Source of the DNA: a virus
Reading direction: 5' to 3' (one strand)
IMG/VR virus record: IMGVR_UViG_3300025128_007302
Coordinates: 1 to 25,835 of that record
DNA length: 25,835 nt
A program made the position numbers and the translations under genes. Position 1 is the stretch's first letter. Every line of letters begins with the position of its first letter. The notes below the pieces were generated by a model. That model did not search any database, was not told the origin of the DNA, and saw nothing but the letters and a program-made list of their open reading frames with translations. Shown in pieces: positions 4,896 to 25,223 of the stretch.

Positions 4896-5570
4896 ATGAA
4901 AAATTTATTATTAACTTTAGCATTGATTCTCGGGATGGGAATGAATGGTTATTCACAAACACCATTAACTACAGCTGTAGATTTTACTCATACGGATTTA
5001 GATGGTAATACCCACAATTTATTTTCTATTTTAAATAGTGGTAAATGGGTAGCGATTGATTTTCACGCTTATTGGTGTGGAACCTGTATGACCCTAGCTC
5101 CTGACTTTGGACAATCATTCCAAGATTACGGGTGTAACACAGGAGATGTGTTTTTTATGACGATAGAACTTGAAGGGACAACAAATCAATGTGAAGATTT
5201 TGAAAATACTTATGGCGGTGGTCATGAGGTACCTTATTTATGTAATGCTAGTAGTATACATAACGATTATGGTATTCAAGCATTCCCAACATTTATATTG
5301 ATTAATCCTAATGGTGATATAGTAGAACAAGATATATGGCCTTTTGATACTGGTATAATGGCTTCGACTTTATATAGTCATGGTTTAAACCCAGCAACGT
5401 GTAGTGGTGCAGTTTCTGTTGAAGAAATAGAAGATGTCTCATACAATTTTAATAATAACAATAATAGAATGTACGACTTATTAGGGAGAGAATATAAAGA
5501 TTACAACTCTATCCCTCTTGGGTCTATGTACATTCGCAATAACAATAAATTTATAAAAACAAAACAATGA
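4896..5570 (+). CDS. Exported thioredoxin-fold protein with T9SS type A-like sorting tail
   Basis: 224 residues from the ATG at 4896, which gives a clean signal peptide (1-20, ending GYS before QTP). The thioredoxin-like domain (about 25-165) has WCGTC (W60, C61, C64) and the cis-Pro motif AFPTF (P131), as in TlpA/thioredoxin oxidoreductases; extra Cys at 80, 99, 116 and 169 suggest disulfides in the mature protein. After an Asn-rich linker (184-190) the last 34 residues (MYDLLGREY ... SMYIRNNNKFIKT) match the short form of the T9SS type A sorting domain that directs cargo across the outer membrane in Bacteroidota. The tail is normally cleaved and the protein often attached to the surface. 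A phage gene with this tail would use the host T9SS. The stop overlaps the next gene as ATGA. Confidence 0.82.
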   Translation: MKNLLLTLALILGMGMNGYSQTPLTTAVDFTHTDLDGNTHNLFSILNSGKWVAIDFHAYWCGTCMTLAPDFGQSFQDYGCNTGDVFFMTIELEGTTNQCEDFENTYGGGHEVPYLCNASSIHNDYGIQAFPTFILINPNGDIVEQDIWPFDTGIMASTLYSHGLNPATCSGAVSVEEIEDVSYNFNNNNNRMYDLLGREYKDYNSIPLGSMYIRNNNKFIKTKQ

Positions 5571-6194: not shown

Positions 6195-7151
6195 ATGAAA
6201 AAACTATTAACCTTTCTTCTTATCGGAACAATGTTCGGATGTGGAGTAATCAATTTAAATAAAACAGTTAAAAAAGATTGTACAACTAAAAAAGAATGTT
6301 GTAAAAAAGATAAAATGGTGGAGGATATAAAAACTTCACAAACTTTTAAACCAAAATTCGATGTAGATGGGGCAACTTGTGGTGCATCACCAACCGTTAA
6401 TGCTAATTCAGTACAATTTGGTACGGCTGATTCAGACGGTGCAGGTAGAGTAGTTTCACAACAAGGATATAAAAGTATTACACAAATTAGAGCTAAAGCA
6501 GATTTTAGTCACTTAACTAGTAATTTTGTTGTTTCTACTTTTTATATGGTAAACAACCCTACTAACCCATCATTACAACCTAAAGGTAGTGATTATTGTG
6601 ACGCTGGAGGTAATAACCCACAATGGAACTGTCAAGAAGTAGACTTCTTTGAAACAAATAAAAATGTAGTATTCCAACATACTATGCATATTGGAGATGG
6701 AAGTAGTTCCGCACCTCAAAACTATCAAATAAGTTATTCTACGACGCAAGATACGTGTTTTACAGACTTAACACCAAAACAAGGATTAGTATCATGGGGC
6801 GGCATTAAATTAAGTGACCCAGTAGATATTATTATTGATTTGGATTCTAATGGTATGACGGTTACTTTTTCACAAGACACTATTTCTACTGTAGTTTATA
6901 AAATGGGTCCAGGATTTGATGGTTCTACTTTTGATGATGACCAAATTAAACGTTGGGAACAAGGAAGACAACAAGGATATTGGTTAGTTCTAAGTCAATG
7001 GCAAGATTTAAAAGGTCCATGGGCTCCAGGCTCTAAACAAAATTTATATAATTGGTCTTGTTCATTTGGGAATTTATGTGGAGCTTCTGAAGGAAACTAC
7101 TTTAAAGTTTATGACATTGAAGTAGACGCTGAATCTATAATAAAAGAATAA
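6195..7151 (+). CDS. Lipoprotein with GH16-like (laminarinase-type) glycosidase domain
   Basis: 318 residues. A lipoprotein signal ends in MFGC (lipidated Cys about 16), followed by a Cys/Lys-rich tether (CTTKKECCKKD). The main domain (about 55-318) has the GH16 catalytic signature E-V-D-F-F-E (E148, D150, E153), which fits the family pattern E-[ILV]-D-x-x-E with E148 as nucleophile and E153 as acid/base, and aromatic substrate-side residues (WGGIKL, YWLVLSQWQ, NLYNWSC). Family members cut beta-1,3 or beta-1,4 linkages in laminarin, carrageenan, agar or lichenan. A clan GH-B relative such as GH7 is the alternative. The many Cys indicate an extracytoplasmic location. It sits in the envelope cassette; its stop overlaps the next start as TAATG. 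Substrate is not predictable from the sequence. Confidence 0.65.
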   Translation: MKKLLTFLLIGTMFGCGVINLNKTVKKDCTTKKECCKKDKMVEDIKTSQTFKPKFDVDGATCGASPTVNANSVQFGTADSDGAGRVVSQQGYKSITQIRAKADFSHLTSNFVVSTFYMVNNPTNPSLQPKGSDYCDAGGNNPQWNCQEVDFFETNKNVVFQHTMHIGDGSSSAPQNYQISYSTTQDTCFTDLTPKQGLVSWGGIKLSDPVDIIIDLDSNGMTVTFSQDTISTVVYKMGPGFDGSTFDDDQIKRWEQGRQQGYWLVLSQWQDLKGPWAPGSKQNLYNWSCSFGNLCGASEGNYFKVYDIEVDAESIIKE

Positions 7152-7522
7152 TGAAAAAATTAATATTAATATTATTATTGTGTCTACCAACACTACTATT
7201 TTCTCAGAATACGTTTACGGATAAGGAGATGATAAAAATAGATTCACTATTCCAAGTGTATGAACAAACCGATAGTTTACAAAAAGTAGAAATTAAGTTA
7301 CTTAACACACAATTGTTAAATTATAGGAAATTACACGAACAAGATAGTTTACATATTGCTTTTCTTACAGAAAAAACAAATCTATTAGACCAACGTATAG
7401 AATTATACATCGATTTAACTAAAGAGTTAGAACCAAAGTGGTTTAAGAGACCAGGATTTCAGTTTTTTTTAGGAGCCGCAACAATTGTTGGTGCTTCTTG
7501 GGTGGTATCTAATGTTAAGTAA
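7151..7522 (+). CDS. Exported coiled-coil protein with C-terminal membrane helix (spanin-like architecture)
   Basis: 123 residues: signal peptide 1-18 (LILILLLCLPTLLFS, cut before Q19 in the usual Bacteroidota way), a helical coiled-coil-like region (about 22-95, Leu/Asp/Gln/Lys heptads) and a C-terminal hydrophobic segment (about 103-120). This puts a periplasmic rod on the inner membrane or, if the leader is retained, across the periplasm. Unimolecular spanins combine an outer-membrane lipoprotein end with a C-terminal membrane helix; here no proper lipobox is seen, so a spanin role is only suggested. It overlaps the GH16-like gene by one base and closes the cassette. The downstream gene starts a new unit after an ATATTTATA element. 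Confidence 0.7.
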   Translation: MKKLILILLLCLPTLLFSQNTFTDKEMIKIDSLFQVYEQTDSLQKVEIKLLNTQLLNYRKLHEQDSLHIAFLTEKTNLLDQRIELYIDLTKELEPKWFKRPGFQFFLGAATIVGASWVVSNVK

Positions 7523-12412: not shown

Positions 12413-13432
12413 ATGAAAGATTATTACAAAATATTAGGTATTAACACTACCGCAAGTCAAGAAGAAATAAAAAAAACTTATCGTAAACTTTCTAAAACCC
12501 ATCACCCTGATATGGGTGGGAATGAAAATAAGTTCAAAGAAATATCTGAAGCTTATGATACTCTGGGAAACGAATCAAAACGTAGAGAATATGATGATAA
12601 AAAAACTAATCCTTTTAATCAATTTGGTGGGGGTGGCCCAGGTATGGATGATATCTTTAATAGTTTTTTTAATCAAACACAACAACAACAAAGACCTACT
12701 CCTAGACACGGTAAAGATTTAAATCTAAAAATACATGTAACCTTAGAAGACATATATTTCTCCAAAGAAAAAAAGATAAAATACAGTAGAAAAAAAAGAT
12801 GTTTTAGTTGTAATGGTACTGGAGGAGAATGGAATTTGTGTGGTAAATGTAATGGACAAGGTAGGATACAAATGATGACAGGGAATAATTTTTTTAGAAA
12901 TATACAATCCGTAACCTGTCCTTCTTGTAATGGTAAAGGTAAAACTCCTAAAAATTTATGTGGGACTTGTGTAGGTCATGGACTTAGAGCGGAGGAACAA
13001 ATTTTTAAATTTAAACTACCACCAGATATTAAACCAGGACAAAGAATGAGTTATCCTGGATATGGGGACGAATCACCCCAAGGTAATCAAGGAAACCTTT
13101 TTGTAGAGATAAGGTTAAGTCACAACCAAACGTTTGAATTAGAGGGTAAAGATATAATTTATACAGCTAATATTAGTCCACTAGACATGTTATTAGGTAC
13201 TGAAATTATTATACCCCATTTTGATGGGTCAGTAAAAATAGATATTCCCTCATTAGGAGATTCAGATAAGGTTTATCAGTTAAGAGGTAAAGGAATGAAA
13301 GAAATGGGTGAGTGGCCTGGTAACCTATTAGTTAAGTTAAAAATTGTAAACCCTAAAAATATAACCGAGGAACAGATTGAAGTTTTACATAAATTACAAC
13401 AAGAGGGTAATTTTAAAAAAGTGAAAGAATAA
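12413..13432 (+). CDS. dnaJ: DnaJ (Hsp40) co-chaperone
   Basis: 339 residues. J-domain 1-65 with HPD (31-33) and the DnaK-contacting helix; short Gly/Phe region (64-85); Zn domain 127-190 with all four C-x2-C-x-G-x-G repeats (C130/C133, C143/C146, C169/C172, C183/C186), the second and third separated by the 20-residue insertion typical of DnaJ; then the two beta-barrel substrate domains. It is shorter than chromosomal DnaJ (about 370) but complete in order, and it stimulates DnaK ATPase and holds unfolded clients. No DnaK or GrpE is visible here, so it would use the host chaperone. The gene abuts the divergent minus-strand gene at base 12412, so its promoter must lie in that gene. Confidence 0.95.
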   Translation: MKDYYKILGINTTASQEEIKKTYRKLSKTHHPDMGGNENKFKEISEAYDTLGNESKRREYDDKKTNPFNQFGGGGPGMDDIFNSFFNQTQQQQRPTPRHGKDLNLKIHVTLEDIYFSKEKKIKYSRKKRCFSCNGTGGEWNLCGKCNGQGRIQMMTGNNFFRNIQSVTCPSCNGKGKTPKNLCGTCVGHGLRAEEQIFKFKLPPDIKPGQRMSYPGYGDESPQGNQGNLFVEIRLSHNQTFELEGKDIIYTANISPLDMLLGTEIIIPHFDGSVKIDIPSLGDSDKVYQLRGKGMKEMGEWPGNLLVKLKIVNPKNITEEQIEVLHKLQQEGNFKKVKE

Positions 13433-18180: not shown

Positions 18181-18519
18181 ATGGCAAAAGATAATTCAGC
18201 AACAAAATTAGCAGCAAACCAACTACTGTTGGAAAAATACGAACCAATTTTGGTTATTAAAATAATGAGAATTCCTCCTGTAGAGGAATTACAAGCTTTT
18301 ACAAAAAAAATTCAGACGGATTTTGGGTATAATACGTTAGTATTACCAGGAGAGTTAGATACCTCTGTAGAAATTTTAAGTGTTTGTGATGTTGAAGTCA
18401 CAGATTTAGAAAAACTACAAAAAATGGTTTATGATAATATTAAATTATTAGAAGAGGATGGGGCAGAAGAAGTGACGTTTAAAACAGCAAAAGAAATAAG
18501 GGATGAAAAAAAGGACTAA
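18181..18519 (+). CDS. Unknown protein, 112 residues
   Basis: An alpha/beta protein (VIKIMRIPPVEELQAFTKKIQ, NTLVLPGELDTSVEILSV, LEKLQKMVYDNIKLLEEDG) with no catalytic motif I can name. The layout, strand-helix-strand-helix, suggests a small ferredoxin-like fold. It overlaps the nucleotidyltransferase start by 17 bp and so opens the metabolic block. Confidence 0.72.
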   Translation: MAKDNSATKLAANQLLLEKYEPILVIKIMRIPPVEELQAFTKKIQTDFGYNTLVLPGELDTSVEILSVCDVEVTDLEKLQKMVYDNIKLLEEDGAEEVTFKTAKEIRDEKKD

Positions 18520-19252
18520 AGGTGTTATTTTAGCTGGGGGTACGGGTAGTAGATTATATCCTTTAACAAAGGTTACTAATAAACACCTATTACCAGTCTA
18601 CGATAAACCTATGATATATTACCCCTTGGAAACCCTTAAAAAAATGGGTTGTAAAGATATATTAATTGTGTCTGGAAGAGAACATTGTGGTGATATATTA
18701 AATTTATTAGGTAGTGGTAGAGAAATGGGTCTTAAATTATCCTATGAAATACAAGACGAGGCGGGTGGAATTGCACATGCTTTAAGTCTCGCTGAAAGAT
18801 TCGTAGGGGCATCTAATGTAGTGGTGTGTTTAGGTGATAATATCTTTAATGAAAACTTAACAATAGATGGTTTCGAAGGGGGTGCAAAGATATTTTTAAA
18901 ATCTGTACATGACCCAGAAAGATTTGGTGTCGCTGAACTTAAAAAAGGGGAAGAGTGTAAAGTGTTATCTATAGAAGAAAAACCAAAAAAACCTAAATCT
19001 AATTTTGCGGTAACTGGTCTTTATATGTATGATAACAGAGTTTTTAGTTATATTAAAAATCTTGCCCCTTCTGAACGAGGAGAATTAGAAATTACTGATG
19101 TTAATAATTTTTATGTTAGAGATGGGTTAATGACTTGTCAGGTGTTACAATCTTGGTGGTCTGATGCAGGAACCTTTGAAAGTTTATTAAAAGCTTCATC
19201 ATTAGTAGCTAATAAAAAATTATGTGAGTGTTCCCCACACGAATTAGAATAA
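18503..19252 (+). CDS. Sugar-1-phosphate nucleotidyltransferase (RmlA-like)
   Basis: 249 residues. N-terminal Rossmann-like domain with the NTP loop GVILAGGTGSRLYPLT (7-22, R17) and NKHLLPVYDKPMIYYPL (26-42, K27), QDEAGGIAHAL (85-95), metal-binding CLGD (109-112), VHDPERFGVAE (135-145), EEKP (158-161) and a sugar-binding WSDAGTF (219-225). These are diagnostic of glucose-1-phosphate thymidylyltransferase (RmlA/RfbA). It transfers NMP to a sugar-1-phosphate, releasing pyrophosphate. It is short: RmlA is about 290, so the C-terminal helical part is missing, as in short homologues. The neighbouring phosphomannomutase and mannose isomerase mean that mannose-1-phosphate is also a possible substrate. 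Confidence 0.9.
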   Translation: MKKRTKGVILAGGTGSRLYPLTKVTNKHLLPVYDKPMIYYPLETLKKMGCKDILIVSGREHCGDILNLLGSGREMGLKLSYEIQDEAGGIAHALSLAERFVGASNVVVCLGDNIFNENLTIDGFEGGAKIFLKSVHDPERFGVAELKKGEECKVLSIEEKPKKPKSNFAVTGLYMYDNRVFSYIKNLAPSERGELEITDVNNFYVRDGLMTCQVLQSWWSDAGTFESLLKASSLVANKKLCECSPHELE

Positions 19253-19273: not shown

Positions 19274-19702
19274 ATGAGAAGAAAAATTTTAAGAAAGTAT
19301 AAAGATTTACATAGTGATAACCCACAAAATATAGGACCAGCACTTACACCCAAAACAAAAAGGAATAAAAATGATTGGGATTCTGATTACTGGTTAAGAG
19401 AACAATATAATAGAAATAGAGGGTACAAAGACCAAATTCCAACCCAAGAGGATATTATAGAATATAACAGAAAAAAAAATAGAGAAAACGAAATGGTAGA
19501 ACACCCTAATCATTATGGGGGTGAAGAAAATCCATATGAAGCTATTAAGGTAATTGAAGAGTGGAATCTTGGATTTAATTTAGGTAATACTATAAAATAC
19601 ATTTCAAGAGCAGGTAAAAAAAATAATACCATTGAAGATTTAGAAAAAGCAGAATGGTATATAAAAAGAGAAATAAATAATTTAAAAAAGGTAAAACAAT
19701 GA
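19274..19702 (+). CDS. DUF3310 protein with basic N-terminal extension
   Basis: 142 residues. Residues 76-140 match DUF3310: VEHPNHYGG, IKVIEEWNLGFNLGNTIKYISRAGKK (metal/nucleotide-type GN..KY..R.GKK core) and EDLEKAEWYIKREIN. The family occurs in many phages and includes T7 gp1.7, a nucleotide kinase. The first 73 residues are basic and Asp/Asn-rich and are not part of the domain; an in-frame ATG at 19493 (M74) would give a domain-only protein. The stop overlaps the next gene as ATGA. Function: probably dNTP metabolism, by family. Confidence 0.85.
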   Translation: MRRKILRKYKDLHSDNPQNIGPALTPKTKRNKNDWDSDYWLREQYNRNRGYKDQIPTQEDIIEYNRKKNRENEMVEHPNHYGGEENPYEAIKVIEEWNLGFNLGNTIKYISRAGKKNNTIEDLEKAEWYIKREINNLKKVKQ

Positions 19703-20229
19703 GAACATTATTATTAGCAGTATTAGTCGCGCTTGGACTAAACACAATACAAGCACAACAACCGCAACAACCTTATTTTTGCTGCGATTCAATAACATAT
19801 TGGATAGACCAAAGTCAAGGATTTAATATAGGACTTGATACATCAAATATAGTACATAATCCTGACTCTATGACAGTATATTGGGGAGTATGTACTGGAT
19901 TTGCAACAGCTGGCATGTGTTATGCAGGACAAGGTATGTATGAGTATTTTCCACAAATTACAACTTCAGATACAATTAAAGTAGCGTATGATGTATACAT
20001 TTACGAGAACGGTTCAGTAGAAGTATGTAGTGTAGAAGATTGGTTAGTATTTGACCAAAACTCTTTTTCATGGGTATTACTCAATATGTTACCAACAAAC
20101 ATAGAAGAACTTGCAATTGAAAAAATTAATGAAAATAAAATATATGATTTAATGGGTAAAGAATTAAGAGAAGTACCAGTAGGGGTTATGTATATTAGAA
20201 ATAATAAACTTTATATAAAAACAAATTAA
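19699..20229 (+). CDS. Exported protein with T9SS type A-like sorting tail
   Basis: 176 residues. Signal peptide 1-19 (LLLAVLVALGLNTIQA before QQ). The middle (20-140) is a Cys-containing beta-rich domain (C28, C29, C65, C74, C110) without a recognised family. Residues 146-176, KIYDLMGKEL ... VGVMYIRNNKLYIKT, match the T9SS type A tail and resemble the tail of the thioredoxin-like protein at 4896-5570 (shared Y-D-L-x-G-x-E, G-x-M-Y-I-R-N-N, I-K-T). The host T9SS would secrete it and cleave the tail. It is coupled by ATGA to the DUF3310 gene and is 1 bp from the cyclophilin gene. Confidence 0.78.
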   Translation: MRTLLLAVLVALGLNTIQAQQPQQPYFCCDSITYWIDQSQGFNIGLDTSNIVHNPDSMTVYWGVCTGFATAGMCYAGQGMYEYFPQITTSDTIKVAYDVYIYENGSVEVCSVEDWLVFDQNSFSWVLLNMLPTNIEELAIEKINENKIYDLMGKELREVPVGVMYIRNNKLYIKTN

Positions 20230-20230
20230 C

Positions 20231-20659
20231 ATGAAAGGTAAAATTAATACAGATAAAGGGACTATGGTGGTAGAGTTTTATGAAAAAGACGCACCTAATA
20301 CAGTAGATAATTTTGTTAAATTAGCAAAAGATGGTTTTTATAATGGATTAAAATTCCATAGAGTAATTCCAGGATTTGTCGCTCAAGGAGGATGTCCTAA
20401 TGGTAGGGGTGATGGTGGACCTGGGTATAAAATAGATTGTGAGTTAAATGGTGGTAATCAGTATCACGACAAAGGTGTTTTATCCATGGCACACGCTGGT
20501 AGAAATACTGGAGGGTCACAATTTTTTATTTGTCACAATAGACCTGGAACACAACATCTAGACAACCAACATACATGTTTTGGAAAAATTGTAGATGGGA
20601 TAAATATTATAGAACAAATCGTACAAGGAGATACATTTTCTGTGGAAATCGAAGATTAA
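20231..20659 (+). CDS. Cyclophilin-type peptidyl-prolyl isomerase
   Basis: 142 residues, a minimal cyclophilin. Catalytic FHRVIPGFVAQGG (42-54, R44, F49, Q52) and SMAHAGRNTGGSQFFI (85-100) match the CypA active site; the usual Trp of the cyclosporin pocket is replaced (HLDNQHTCFGKI, 109-120), as in most bacterial forms. It accelerates cis-trans isomerisation of X-Pro bonds. No signal peptide, so cytoplasmic. It lies 1 bp after the T9SS protein and its stop overlaps the cysteine synthase start by one base (TAATG). Confidence 0.95.
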   Translation: MKGKINTDKGTMVVEFYEKDAPNTVDNFVKLAKDGFYNGLKFHRVIPGFVAQGGCPNGRGDGGPGYKIDCELNGGNQYHDKGVLSMAHAGRNTGGSQFFICHNRPGTQHLDNQHTCFGKIVDGINIIEQIVQGDTFSVEIED

Positions 20660-21570
20660 TGAAAACAAGATTATCTGATTACGTTGGTAATACACCTCTT
20701 ATACCTATTAAAATAGGTGAATTAACTGTTTGGGGAAAATGTGAATTTATGAATCCAGGTGGTTCAGTAAAGGATAGAATGGCTACCTTTATTTTAAACG
20801 ATGCAGAAAAAAGAGGTATACTTAAAAAAGGTGATACTATTTGTGAAGCGACATCAGGTAATTCAGGAATCGCGTTTGCGATGTTAGCGGCAGAAAGAGG
20901 TTATAAAATAGAAATTTTTATGCCCAGAAACATGTCAGAAGAACGTAAACAAATGCTTCAATTCTATGGGGCAAATTTAAGAGAAGTGGATGAAGGGGAC
21001 TTTGATGGAGCTATCCTAAGAAGAGATGTCCTATGTCATACCCATGGATGGTTTAACTGTAACCAATTTAATAATCCTTTGAACATCCAAGCACATTATG
21101 AAAATACAGCTCCTGAAATTTATGAAGAATGGTCATTACCTAAAACTAGAGGTAGTTACCGACGAATAGATAGTCCTGCGGTTTTTATAGCTGGTACAGG
21201 GACGGGAGGAACTTTAATGGGTTGTGGAAAACGATTAAAAGAATATTGGAATAAACTAAAAGTAGTAGCTATTGAACCTGCAGAATCCGCTGTTATGTCA
21301 GGGGGTGATGAAGGTCTACATGGCATCCAAGGAATAGGAGACGGAAGCAAATTTTTAGTAGATTTGGATTTTGTAGATGAAATTAAAACAGTTAAGACAG
21401 ACTGTGCTAAAGAAATGGCAAAACATTTAGCTCTTAAATACGGTCTATTTGTTGGTATTAGTGCAGGGGCAAACGTCAAAGCAGCATTCCAATGGTTAAG
21501 AGATAACAATGAAAAAGAGGCAATAACAATTCTCTGTGATAGAGGAGAAAGATATTTTAGTTGTTTATGA
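20659..21570 (+). CDS. cysM: Cysteine synthase, CysM-like (O-acetylserine sulfhydrylase)
   Basis: 303 residues from ATG 20659, which overlaps the cyclophilin stop; the open frame extends further upstream but only inside that gene. PLP enzyme of fold type II: GNTPLIPI (10-17), NPGGSVKDRM with the PLP lysine K38, TSGNSG (65-70), the substrate loop, the glycine-rich phosphate loop GTGTGGT (near 177) and SAGAN in the C-terminal part. It makes L-cysteine from O-acetyl-L-serine and sulfide (or thiosulfate for CysM). MPRNMSEERKQMLQFYGANL and the ending ILCDRGERYFSCL favour CysM-type. Cysteine would supply the Cys-rich exported proteins and the metallothionein-like peptide encoded here. It is coupled by ATGA to the next gene. 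It is a metabolic gene one would not expect in a minimal phage. Confidence 0.93.
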   Translation: MKTRLSDYVGNTPLIPIKIGELTVWGKCEFMNPGGSVKDRMATFILNDAEKRGILKKGDTICEATSGNSGIAFAMLAAERGYKIEIFMPRNMSEERKQMLQFYGANLREVDEGDFDGAILRRDVLCHTHGWFNCNQFNNPLNIQAHYENTAPEIYEEWSLPKTRGSYRRIDSPAVFIAGTGTGGTLMGCGKRLKEYWNKLKVVAIEPAESAVMSGGDEGLHGIQGIGDGSKFLVDLDFVDEIKTVKTDCAKEMAKHLALKYGLFVGISAGANVKAAFQWLRDNNEKEAITILCDRGERYFSCL

Positions 21571-23120: not shown

Positions 23121-23708
23121 ATGCGTATAATCATTAAAGAGTCCCAATTTAAAAGATTATTAGAACAAAAATCTTTTAAATCCAAATTTGTAGATTGGAG
23201 AACTAGAAGTGCAGGACAACCTATTTTTGATTATGTTAGACAATGGGAAGATTTTGTACCCTTTACGTATGATGACTATTATTTCCCCCCAAGAGTGTTT
23301 ACAGGTTCTACAAGTAACGCAAACGGAACCCTAACTATAGGTTATGGTACTACAGACCCTAAGTACGCTTATCCAGGTAATACCATCACTAAAAAAGTAG
23401 CAGAACAAATTTCCCAACCAGATATTCAAGAAGCTGCAGATTGTATAAAAAGATGGCAAGGCAGAGCTAAACCAGGTGACAAATTTAGTTTTAATAATAG
23501 AAAAATAACATCAGGTATGTATTATGTGATGAGTGATATAGTTTACAACATGGGATGCCAAGCTTTTATAAAAACTAAAACTATAGAAAAAATAGAACAA
23601 GGGGAGTATAAAAAAGCTAAAGACTTTATACAAAATAAATTAGAATGGGGTCACCAAAAAAGAAAAGACCAAGCAGCAATAACTTTTTGTAAAGATGGGG
23701 TATGTTAA
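23121..23708 (+). CDS. GH24 lysozyme (muramidase) with N-terminal tag
   Basis: 195 residues. Catalytic Glu E43 in RQWEDFVPFTYDD (40-52), then TIGYGTT (72-78), and the family-typical RKDQAAITFCKDG near the C-terminus (corresponding to RRxxE..L..G). It cuts the beta-1,4 bond between N-acetylmuramic acid and N-acetylglucosamine. No signal peptide or membrane helix is present. The first 16 residues, MRIIIKESQFKRLLEQ, are not part of the fold and resemble the start of the DHH protein next door; they could be a sorting or packaging tag. An insertion between E43 and TIGYG is larger than in T4 lysozyme. Whether it is the endolysin or a virion-borne lysozyme is open; the amidase at 2818 is the other candidate endolysin. 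Confidence 0.88.
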   Translation: MRIIIKESQFKRLLEQKSFKSKFVDWRTRSAGQPIFDYVRQWEDFVPFTYDDYYFPPRVFTGSTSNANGTLTIGYGTTDPKYAYPGNTITKKVAEQISQPDIQEAADCIKRWQGRAKPGDKFSFNNRKITSGMYYVMSDIVYNMGCQAFIKTKTIEKIEQGEYKKAKDFIQNKLEWGHQKRKDQAAITFCKDGVC

Positions 23709-23720: not shown

Positions 23721-25223
23721 ATGAAATCAGTATTAATCACAAAAAAACAATTTAATAACATTTCTGAGTCTTTAATTACAGAAAGTGGTATTCAGGACAT
23801 TAAAAAACTAGCGGAAAGATATCCTAAAGCTCAGATATATTTTCATTTAGATTTAGACGGGGTGGTATCAGCGATAGCGATGAGAGAATACCTTAATAAG
23901 TACGGGATAGAAACTATAGGGTTTAAAACCATCCAATACGGAGATAAAGAATTTGCATTAGTTAAACCAGATGCTAATAAAGATGTTATGCCGGTTTTAG
24001 TAGATTTCGCTCATGGTAAACCTGAATTTAAAATACACACGGACCATCACGATACCCAAACAGGTGTAGAAGACGCTGCTACACAATTTAAACCAGCTCG
24101 TTCTAATGTTGAAACAATTTCAGGGATAATTTCACCTACAGATATATTCCCTACTGGTGATATAGACCTTTTTAGAACAGTAGATTCTGCAGATTTTTAC
24201 CGAAAGGGTATTAAACCAGAAGAAGTGATTAACTTTGTATTTAAGTTAGATAAAGAAAAAGATATTGAAAAAAATAGACAAGCTGCTGGATTTGCACTTA
24301 ATAAATTGATTTTAGCTTATAAAAATAAGCCTGGTTTCCTAGAAAAATTAGCAATGTTCTCCAATCCGAGCATTGTTAGTATGTTTATGAAAGGGAAAGA
24401 ATTAGCCAATCAGATGGGTTTTCCAGGGGTAGAAACTCTCCAAACTAATTCAGAAGATTATAGAGAAAGACTAAAAAACTTTGATAAAGTACAACAAAAA
24501 GGTAAGATACTTGTACAATATGGTATACCTTCAGCTTTTAAACCTGGTTCTTACGATAGATATTCTTCATTAGAAATGTATCCTGATGTGGAGTATTTTC
24601 TAATGATTTGGCCTATGGGATTAATTCAAACCAGTTGTAATCCATTTAAATCAAAATTTGATGAAAATGTTAATTTAGGTGACATGGCAAGTGAGGTACT
24701 AGATGAGTTTAAATCTGAATTAGAATCTATAGATATACCCTTATCACAGATTAAAAGAATTAGTGAAAGAAGTGTAACATCTACTCTACAAAAATTGATT
24801 AAACAAAGTGATGAAGATTTTGGAGACGTAAAATCAGAAAAAGATTTTTTTGGGTTTAGATTTAAGGATTTAATCGCATTATATAAAGATAATATTAAAG
24901 GGATAAATCCTGATAAAAAATCTAGTTTTAATGATTTAATTACTGATATTGCCAATCGACCATATTCTGATTTATCATATAAACAAAAAAAAGTATTAGA
25001 CTATGTTTCTGTAAACGCTTATGATATTATTAAAGCAAACAGTGGTGGTCACCCTTGTATAACAAACATTTCAGGAATTAATTATCTTGGAAAACTAGGT
25101 GGTGATTTTCTTAAAAGAATAGCCAAAAGAATTTTAGAAAAGTTAAGTGAGAAAGTTAATAAAGAGGAATCTACATCACTTAAAGAATCTATAAAAAATA
25201 AATTAAAAGAATTCAGAAGATAA
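23721..25223 (+). CDS. DHH-family phosphoesterase with N-terminal tag
   Basis: 500 residues. After a tag-like start (ITKKQFNNISESLITE, 6-21) the DHH domain shows YFHLDLDGVVSAIAMREYL (40-58; D44, D46), PVLVDFAHG (91-99; D95) and the eponymous HTDHHD (106-111; D108, H109, H110). A DHHA1-like glycine motif, SGGHP, sits at 441-445. The family hydrolyses phosphodiester bonds in nano-RNA, cyclic dinucleotides, single-stranded DNA or polyphosphate. The central region (about 230-420) is not covered by the known fold and may be an insertion. It is about 150 residues longer than typical NrnA-like members. Virion-borne or cytoplasmic is undetermined. Confidence 0.85.
   Translation: MKSVLITKKQFNNISESLITESGIQDIKKLAERYPKAQIYFHLDLDGVVSAIAMREYLNKYGIETIGFKTIQYGDKEFALVKPDANKDVMPVLVDFAHGKPEFKIHTDHHDTQTGVEDAATQFKPARSNVETISGIISPTDIFPTGDIDLFRTVDSADFYRKGIKPEEVINFVFKLDKEKDIEKNRQAAGFALNKLILAYKNKPGFLEKLAMFSNPSIVSMFMKGKELANQMGFPGVETLQTNSEDYRERLKNFDKVQQKGKILVQYGIPSAFKPGSYDRYSSLEMYPDVEYFLMIWPMGLIQTSCNPFKSKFDENVNLGDMASEVLDEFKSELESIDIPLSQIKRISERSVTSTLQKLIKQSDEDFGDVKSEKDFFGFRFKDLIALYKDNIKGINPDKKSSFNDLITDIANRPYSDLSYKQKKVLDYVSVNAYDIIKANSGGHPCITNISGINYLGKLGGDFLKRIAKRILEKLSEKVNKEESTSLKESIKNKLKEFRR

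Follow-up and report, generated by a model that had tools for sequence, protein, structure and literature searches.

Among the closest described systems is HBP35 of Porphyromonas gingivalis, which needs its last 22 residues, with motifs D and E, to reach the cell surface through T9SS (PMC3120885); a review reports, in its available text, that these residues suffice for the secretion of GFP (PMC10202324). We follow the definitions of motifs D and E of the T9SS sorting domain in the accessible parts of these two papers. Phages carrying such cargo have also been described: Cryophage encodes proteins with T9SS sorting tails that, as far as the accessible text goes, are thought to use the host's system (PMC7468147), and T9SS sorting-domain proteins were found on contigs of BACON-encoding gut phages (PMC6949934, accessible text).

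The window, by which we mean the whole 25,835-base IMG/VR virus fragment analyzed here, encodes a redoxin that resembles each of these systems in part. Like HBP35, it combines a thioredoxin motif with a T9SS-type tail (type A in HBP35), but HBP35 is bacterial, haem-binding and endowed with a longer CTD, whereas the phage tail has motifs D and E only. With the type A domain (TIGR04183/PF18962) it shares the C-terminal site, the order of D then E, the signal peptide and homologous cargo bodies; that domain is a 72-position model, in contrast to a phage tail of about 40 aa that has no motif A or B and is missed by the models. As in Cryophage, a tail cargo gene lies in a phage genome (here an IMG/VR record, with related cargo beside a terminase and a sheath gene), but the Cryophage cargo described in the accessible text comprises an endoglucanase, a GH39 protein and a PA14 protein with recognized type A tails, whereas the cargo here comprises redoxins and Cys-rich proteins with an unrecognized short tail. 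The BACON phages come from the gut and carry BACON repeats, and the accessible text mentions no redox cargo, unlike the redoxin cargo here. ResA/TlpA-like oxidoreductases have the fold family, CxxC motif and signal peptide in common with the phage redoxin, which differs from them by its additional T9SS-type tail and its phage genome. Phage T9SS cargo is thus already published, and the novelty lies in the short tail, in its occurrence across 86 contigs and in the redox pairing of the cargo; neither phage redoxins nor this short tail were found as T9SS cargo in the titles and abstract openings retrieved from the open literature.

Two tail-bearing genes and the DNA that carries them

The features of the two genes are as follows.

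4896–5570, plus strand: coding sequence of 224 aa with an ATG start; signal peptide, ResA/TlpA-like redoxin, Asn-rich linker and short T9SS-type tail
4896–4958, plus strand: predicted Sec signal peptide of 21 aa, starting MKNLLLTLALILGMGMNGYSQ, called by a heuristic rule on the sequence
4968–5330, plus strand: redoxin domain, from Pfam and NCBIfam matches; PDB relative ResA 4nmu, E 1.2e-14
5073–5087, plus strand: WCGTC active-site motif, whose two Cys do not vary among four phage relatives
5280–5291, plus strand: AFPT, with Ala, Pro and Thr conserved in four phage relatives
about 5442–5468, plus strand: Asn-rich linker YNFNNNNNR, from the sequence
5472–5492, plus strand: tail motif D-like YDLLGRE, from the sequence pattern and profile alignment
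5520–5558, plus strand: tail motif E-like GSMYIRNNNKFIK, from the sequence and profile alignment
19699–20229, plus strand: second tail-bearing coding sequence, 176 aa; signal peptide, Cys-rich Ig/FN3-like domain and the same short tail as the redoxin
20143–20226, plus strand: short tail of the second cargo, YDLMGKE...MYIRNNKLYIKTN, from the sequence and AlphaFold2

The original prediction had read a signal peptide, a WCGTC thioredoxin active site, an Asn-rich linker and a short C-terminal tail from the 4896–5570 product, and all four are borne out at the positions above, the signal peptide by the heuristic call and the active site together with thioredoxin-family Pfam matches above cut-off (AhpC-TSA, E 9.6e-10; Thioredoxin, 2.5e-9; Thioredoxin_8, 9.9e-9). 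The full tail reads YDLLGRE-YKDYNSIPL-GSMYIRNNNKFIKTKQ. The closest NCBIfam model for the protein is ResA (E 6.9e-12, under its curated cut-off), and the ResA/TlpA-like features present are the match to the thioredoxin fold family, the CxxC and a conserved cis-Pro region, AFPT being what we take to be the cis-Pro loop motif. An AlphaFold2 model of the redoxin reached a pLDDT of 40 and was set aside as unusable.

The second tail-bearing ORF was absent from the original prediction. The window has two matches to the codon pattern for the YDL-type motif (5472–5492 and 20143–20163), both in frame and close to an ORF end, whereas 100 dinucleotide shuffles averaged 0. The AlphaFold2 model of the Cys-rich protein has a mean pLDDT of 80, with an Ig/FN3-like sandwich predicted for the body and a strand pair across residues 151–176 (block means 85–87); the tail of the model shows this strand pair only, in contrast to the seven-stranded Ig-like CTD fold of type A. 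Foldseek searches with the model gave no match at E ≤ 0.001, and VIA-align retrieved generic Ig/FN3-like domains (best Z 8.7), from which no function was deduced.

We take the window to be phage DNA, from a marine virus of bacteria. It appears to be part of a 73.9-kb virus contig, on which six 200-base probes all fell at one offset and which carries the identical redoxin (88% identical on another contig), a phage-type primase (phrog_47, E 1.6e-38) and a phage-type exonuclease (phrog_298, E 5.6e-28). An endolysin is encoded in the window itself, and the 39-kb contig of a related tail redoxin, L193, also encodes a terminase large subunit and a tail sheath (phrog_34521, E 1.1e-128). Were the window instead a piece of bacterial chromosome, the redoxin would be ordinary host T9SS cargo. 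That reading could draw on the close redoxin relatives in chromosomes and on the 73.9-kb contig, where a scan of 19 proteins gave no convincing capsid, tail or terminase gene, one ATPase-like protein matching a terminase small subunit family at E 0.001. We rejected it as highly improbable given the IMG/VR virus record, the endolysin, the phage genes of the sister contig and the related contig with terminase and sheath. A terminase search of 25 viral records matched eight, seven strongly and one weakly (E 3.9e-5), the large subunit having no match in G001 or G002, the two sister contigs, both among the 25; the family also matches 11 of 14 control genomes, so that it is weak evidence alone.

Several other genes of the window were noted in passing. 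Host-type genes comprise a sigma-70 factor and DnaJ, from profile searches, and, by eye, an RfbA-like nucleotidyltransferase and a cysteine synthase (740–1537, 12413–13432, 18503–19252 and 20575–21570 for the four together). The 123-aa ORF at 7151–7522 begins much like a signal peptide and has a hydrophobic C-terminus, and by eye it resembles a spanin. The N-termini MRIIIKESQFKRLLEQ, FADFVNEM and FDTFINEA recur on phage proteins (window 23121–23708 and 23721–25223; L272:15065–19390) and, we presume, resemble T4-type capsid-targeting sequences.

The short tail against the type A sorting domain

The original prediction had assigned the tail to the T9SS type A layout and named the TIGR04183 HMM as the check, counting the lack of a match against itself. 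This check was negative for both tail ORFs of the window: TIGR04183 matched no window ORF at E ≤ 1 in the NCBIfam scan or at E ≤ 0.001 in a second search, and PF18962 had no match among the window ORFs. Across 44 phage-type tails (of 49 listed; 43 from viral loci and one from the MAG contig L115), TIGR04183 and PF18962 each matched one (E 0.012 and 0.056, respectively), which is roughly how unrelated families score in these scans, and TIGR04183 matched none of 18 Bacteroidales short tails (of 19 listed).

The short tail spans about 40 aa, with motif D followed by motif E at the extreme C-terminus and a Lys in motif E. Type A motifs A–B include a PNP region, and upstream of the short tail motifs A and B are missing, with no PNP-type motif B, in contrast to the TIGR04183 tails of bacterial genomes. 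When the profile of the 44 phage-type tails was compared with that of 20 TIGR04183 tails from bacterial genomes, none of 200 column shuffles reached the score, either locally or globally. In the global alignment the D motifs coincide and so do the E motifs, with the residues in between deleted; the plain local match was limited to motif D, so the link to T9SS is modest on tail sequence alone. Because the models miss it, the tail must not be filed as type A as modeled. Of the predicted layout, motifs D and E therefore stand, whereas motifs A–B and the TIGR04183 match do not. Since homologues of the cargo bear canonical tails, as described below, we read the negative HMM result as a limit of the models, and the original interpretation is partly supported, the tail being a short D+E form that chromosomal secreted proteins also carry.

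Searching the viral collection with the tail yielded 59 loci in one scan and the best 80 of 96 in another, together at least 86 distinct contigs, some of which probably duplicate a single virus almost exactly. The 179 viral loci contain 62 distinct complete tail ORFs. A signal peptide was called for 61 of them, the exception being an N-terminally short ORF, and for 127 of the 1202 remaining ORFs (Fisher p 1e-53; calls by a simple heuristic rule, with the window ORFs belonging to the same families). The bodies of these tail ORFs are Cys-rich Ig/FN3-like in 54 cases, thioredoxin-fold in seven and other in one. These counts leave out the bacterial MAG loci L112 and L115, with which they become 63 of 64 tail ORFs, 133 of 1237 others and families of 55, eight and one. 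On 14 cellular loci the signal peptide was present on 19/19 tail ORFs versus 26/79 other ORFs, and on 20 further, short Bacteroidales loci, where four complete tail ORFs were callable, on two of the four. The seed patterns select the short tail, so tail counts, including the 71 short to one canonical on viral loci, are biased toward the short form. Judged by these predicted signal peptides, the short tail is an export-linked module.

When the phage tails were searched for across the phylum, one of 296 genomes matched strongly and eight matched weakly. Among 50,697 deposited phages we found one weak redoxin match (28%) and no relative of the Cys-rich protein or of one large protein of the sister contig. 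A second short tail type, LLKIxDxLGRx...YxYDDGTVEKKIIIE, ends eight ORFs on 45 Flavobacteriales loci (L275, L286, L294, L296, L306, L309, L312 and L313); on 188 viral loci none was convincing, with one chance-like regex match.

Pairing of the cargo and its bacterial relatives

Both kinds of cargo occur together on seven of the eight contigs that carry the seven viral thioredoxin-fold tail ORFs, the window not being counted. On four of them the thioredoxin-fold tail gene lies 0 to 11 bases from the Cys-rich tail gene, and on three the redoxin and Cys-rich genes are about 14–15 kb apart, two of the three contigs being, at this locus, the window's own virus; the remaining contig, of 39 kb, had no Cys-rich partner when searched whole. 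At L034:11286–12996, a Cys-rich tail gene, a tail redoxin and a third exported ORF follow each other with one-base overlaps, and the same IMG/VR contig also has an ORF with a canonical-type tail, as detected with a profile from TIGR04183 tails. The third L034 ORF has a 20-residue signal peptide identical to that of the redoxin and no tail, and looks like an outer-membrane protein by eye. A 619-aa thioredoxin-like protein with the short tail was found on the 19.7-kb contig L115 of a MAG labeled Candidatus Pelagibacter; this MAG has no TIGR04183 match and no second tail, and the contig is probably a mis-binned phage contig.

Bacterial relatives were sought in 296 genomes of the order of G004 (home of L112; labeled Chryseobacterium gleum, and Flavobacteriales by that label), and 113 of them encode a protein related to the redoxin body (E ≤ 1e-10). 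TIGR04183 matched 14 of 22 cellular redoxin relatives, with a best E of 3.2e-14; these 22 are from 30 listed loci, the others being without a callable ORF over the match. A longer phage cargo points the same way: the 434-aa thioredoxin-fold protein aligns with bacterial L298 over 411 columns (36%), and where L298 ends in a TIGR04183 domain (E 2.9e-12) the phage homologue has the short tail. Near the chromosomal redoxin L315 lies RecF, which was confirmed, along with other neighbors assigned by eye, paa genes among them. L315 shares 45% identity with the window redoxin and, over 152 aa, 74% with phage L193. The match with L193 ends at residue 168, before the tail, and the tails differ, with ITDLLGRK...YNYDDGTVEKKIIIE on the chromosome and an intact short tail on the phage protein. 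From these comparisons, the redoxin was most likely taken from the T9SS-secreted redoxins of a Flavobacteriales host.

These data bear on whether the protein would leave the periplasm at all. ResA is a membrane-linked or periplasmic redoxin, and a ResA/DsbE-like helper exported by Sec only might, for example, fold phage or host envelope proteins, with the tail as a relic of the host gene that has no sorting role; that ResA is the closest curated model and that the official T9SS models miss the tail would fit. Such a relic is hard to square with a tail kept on 54 Cys-rich and seven thioredoxin-fold proteins of viral loci, or with L193, whose divergence from its host relative begins right at the tail and which ends in a different tail that is intact, not decayed, and we consider this explanation unlikely.

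The short tail also ends ordinary secreted bacterial proteins. Among them is the PDB arabinanase 4kca, whose tail matches the bacterial tail profile at E 4.3e-10 and the phage one at 0.0019, and chromosomal Cys-rich short-tail proteins are encoded beside thyA and near clpX (L317), near pyrR (L318) and, on the bacterial contig L319 (7407–15004), in a gene followed by ruvA and then by the T9SS translocon gene sprA. In Flavobacteriales (for example G004, G664 and G778), sprA and a redoxin relative are at most 5.3 kb apart in 27 of the 63 genomes that have both among the matches listed. The 28 such matches compare with about 1.7 expected at random placement in 1.5 Mb; the genomes are related, so the proximity events are fewer than counted.

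All 28 tail-bearing Bacteroidales genomes, several of which have weak tail matches, carry SprA, as do 277 of the 295 in total (p 0.24). Among Flavobacteriales, SprA is present in 27 of 31 tail-bearing genomes, hand-picked as matches reaching the tail, and in 209 of the 265 others (p 0.35). The base rate of T9SS in these orders is too high for this co-occurrence to discriminate, and we rejected it as proof of T9SS routing. PorU scored above cut-off in 13/13 short-tail genomes tested, and all four Flavobacteriales tail genomes without SprA have PorU; in G715, the home of L315 and its other tail type, PorU is below cut-off and SprA is present.

That SprA does not discriminate, together with a match limited to motifs D and E and lacking a PNP-type motif B, leaves room for the tail being the signal of other machinery, such as an outer-membrane anchor or a virion-incorporation tag, with a convergent likeness to T9SS motifs D and E. 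We think this improbable as well, given that homologous bodies bear canonical T9SS tails at the same end, that the same tail ends ordinary secreted bacterial proteins, the arabinanase among them, and that PorU accompanies the short tail in every genome tested.

Proposed route and its meaning

The reading we favor, and regard as likely, is that the redoxin is a phage-carried, host-derived thiol-disulfide protein that would be exported by Sec, routed by T9SS through its D+E tail and active on external disulfides. In a Flavobacteriales host that possesses T9SS, Sec would take it to the periplasm, and the host T9SS would recognize the C-terminal D+E tail and carry the folded redoxin across the outer membrane, where the CxxC site would act on disulfides of surface or secreted proteins. 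Likely substrates would include the Cys-rich Ig/FN3-like proteins that bear the same tail and come from the same phages. The export through the host T9SS that the original prediction had proposed is indirectly supported by the Sec signal peptide, the T9SS-type tail and the homologues with canonical tails, but not by the HMM. The comparisons establish the anatomy of the protein, the occurrence of its tail on secreted proteins encoded in chromosomes of T9SS-bearing genomes and its homology to host T9SS redoxins; secretion, redox activity and substrate are what we infer for the phage protein. In a bolder version, which we offer tentatively and consider rather unlikely, the two cargoes would form a two-part extracellular redox module, released by infected cells with a short tail that phages favor, the T9SS-secreted oxidoreductase forming or reshuffling the disulfides of the Cys-rich proteins. 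The result would be a new or remodeled coat on the cell surface that alters phage adsorption or cell–cell contact while infection proceeds. The roles named in the original prediction, altered receptors and superinfection exclusion, are possible as a matter of speculation.

The tail is nearly invisible to the curated models (one match in 44, E 0.012), which suggests that phage use of the host T9SS in Flavobacteriales is commoner than annotation shows. Nature appears to employ the minimal D+E signal that the deletion work on HBP35 indicated, and what T9SS recognizes thereby becomes testable with natural tail swaps, in which closely related bodies carry different tails in phage and host. A redoxin secreted together with Cys-rich surface proteins, as proposed here, offers a concrete hypothesis for what infected cells may place outside themselves.
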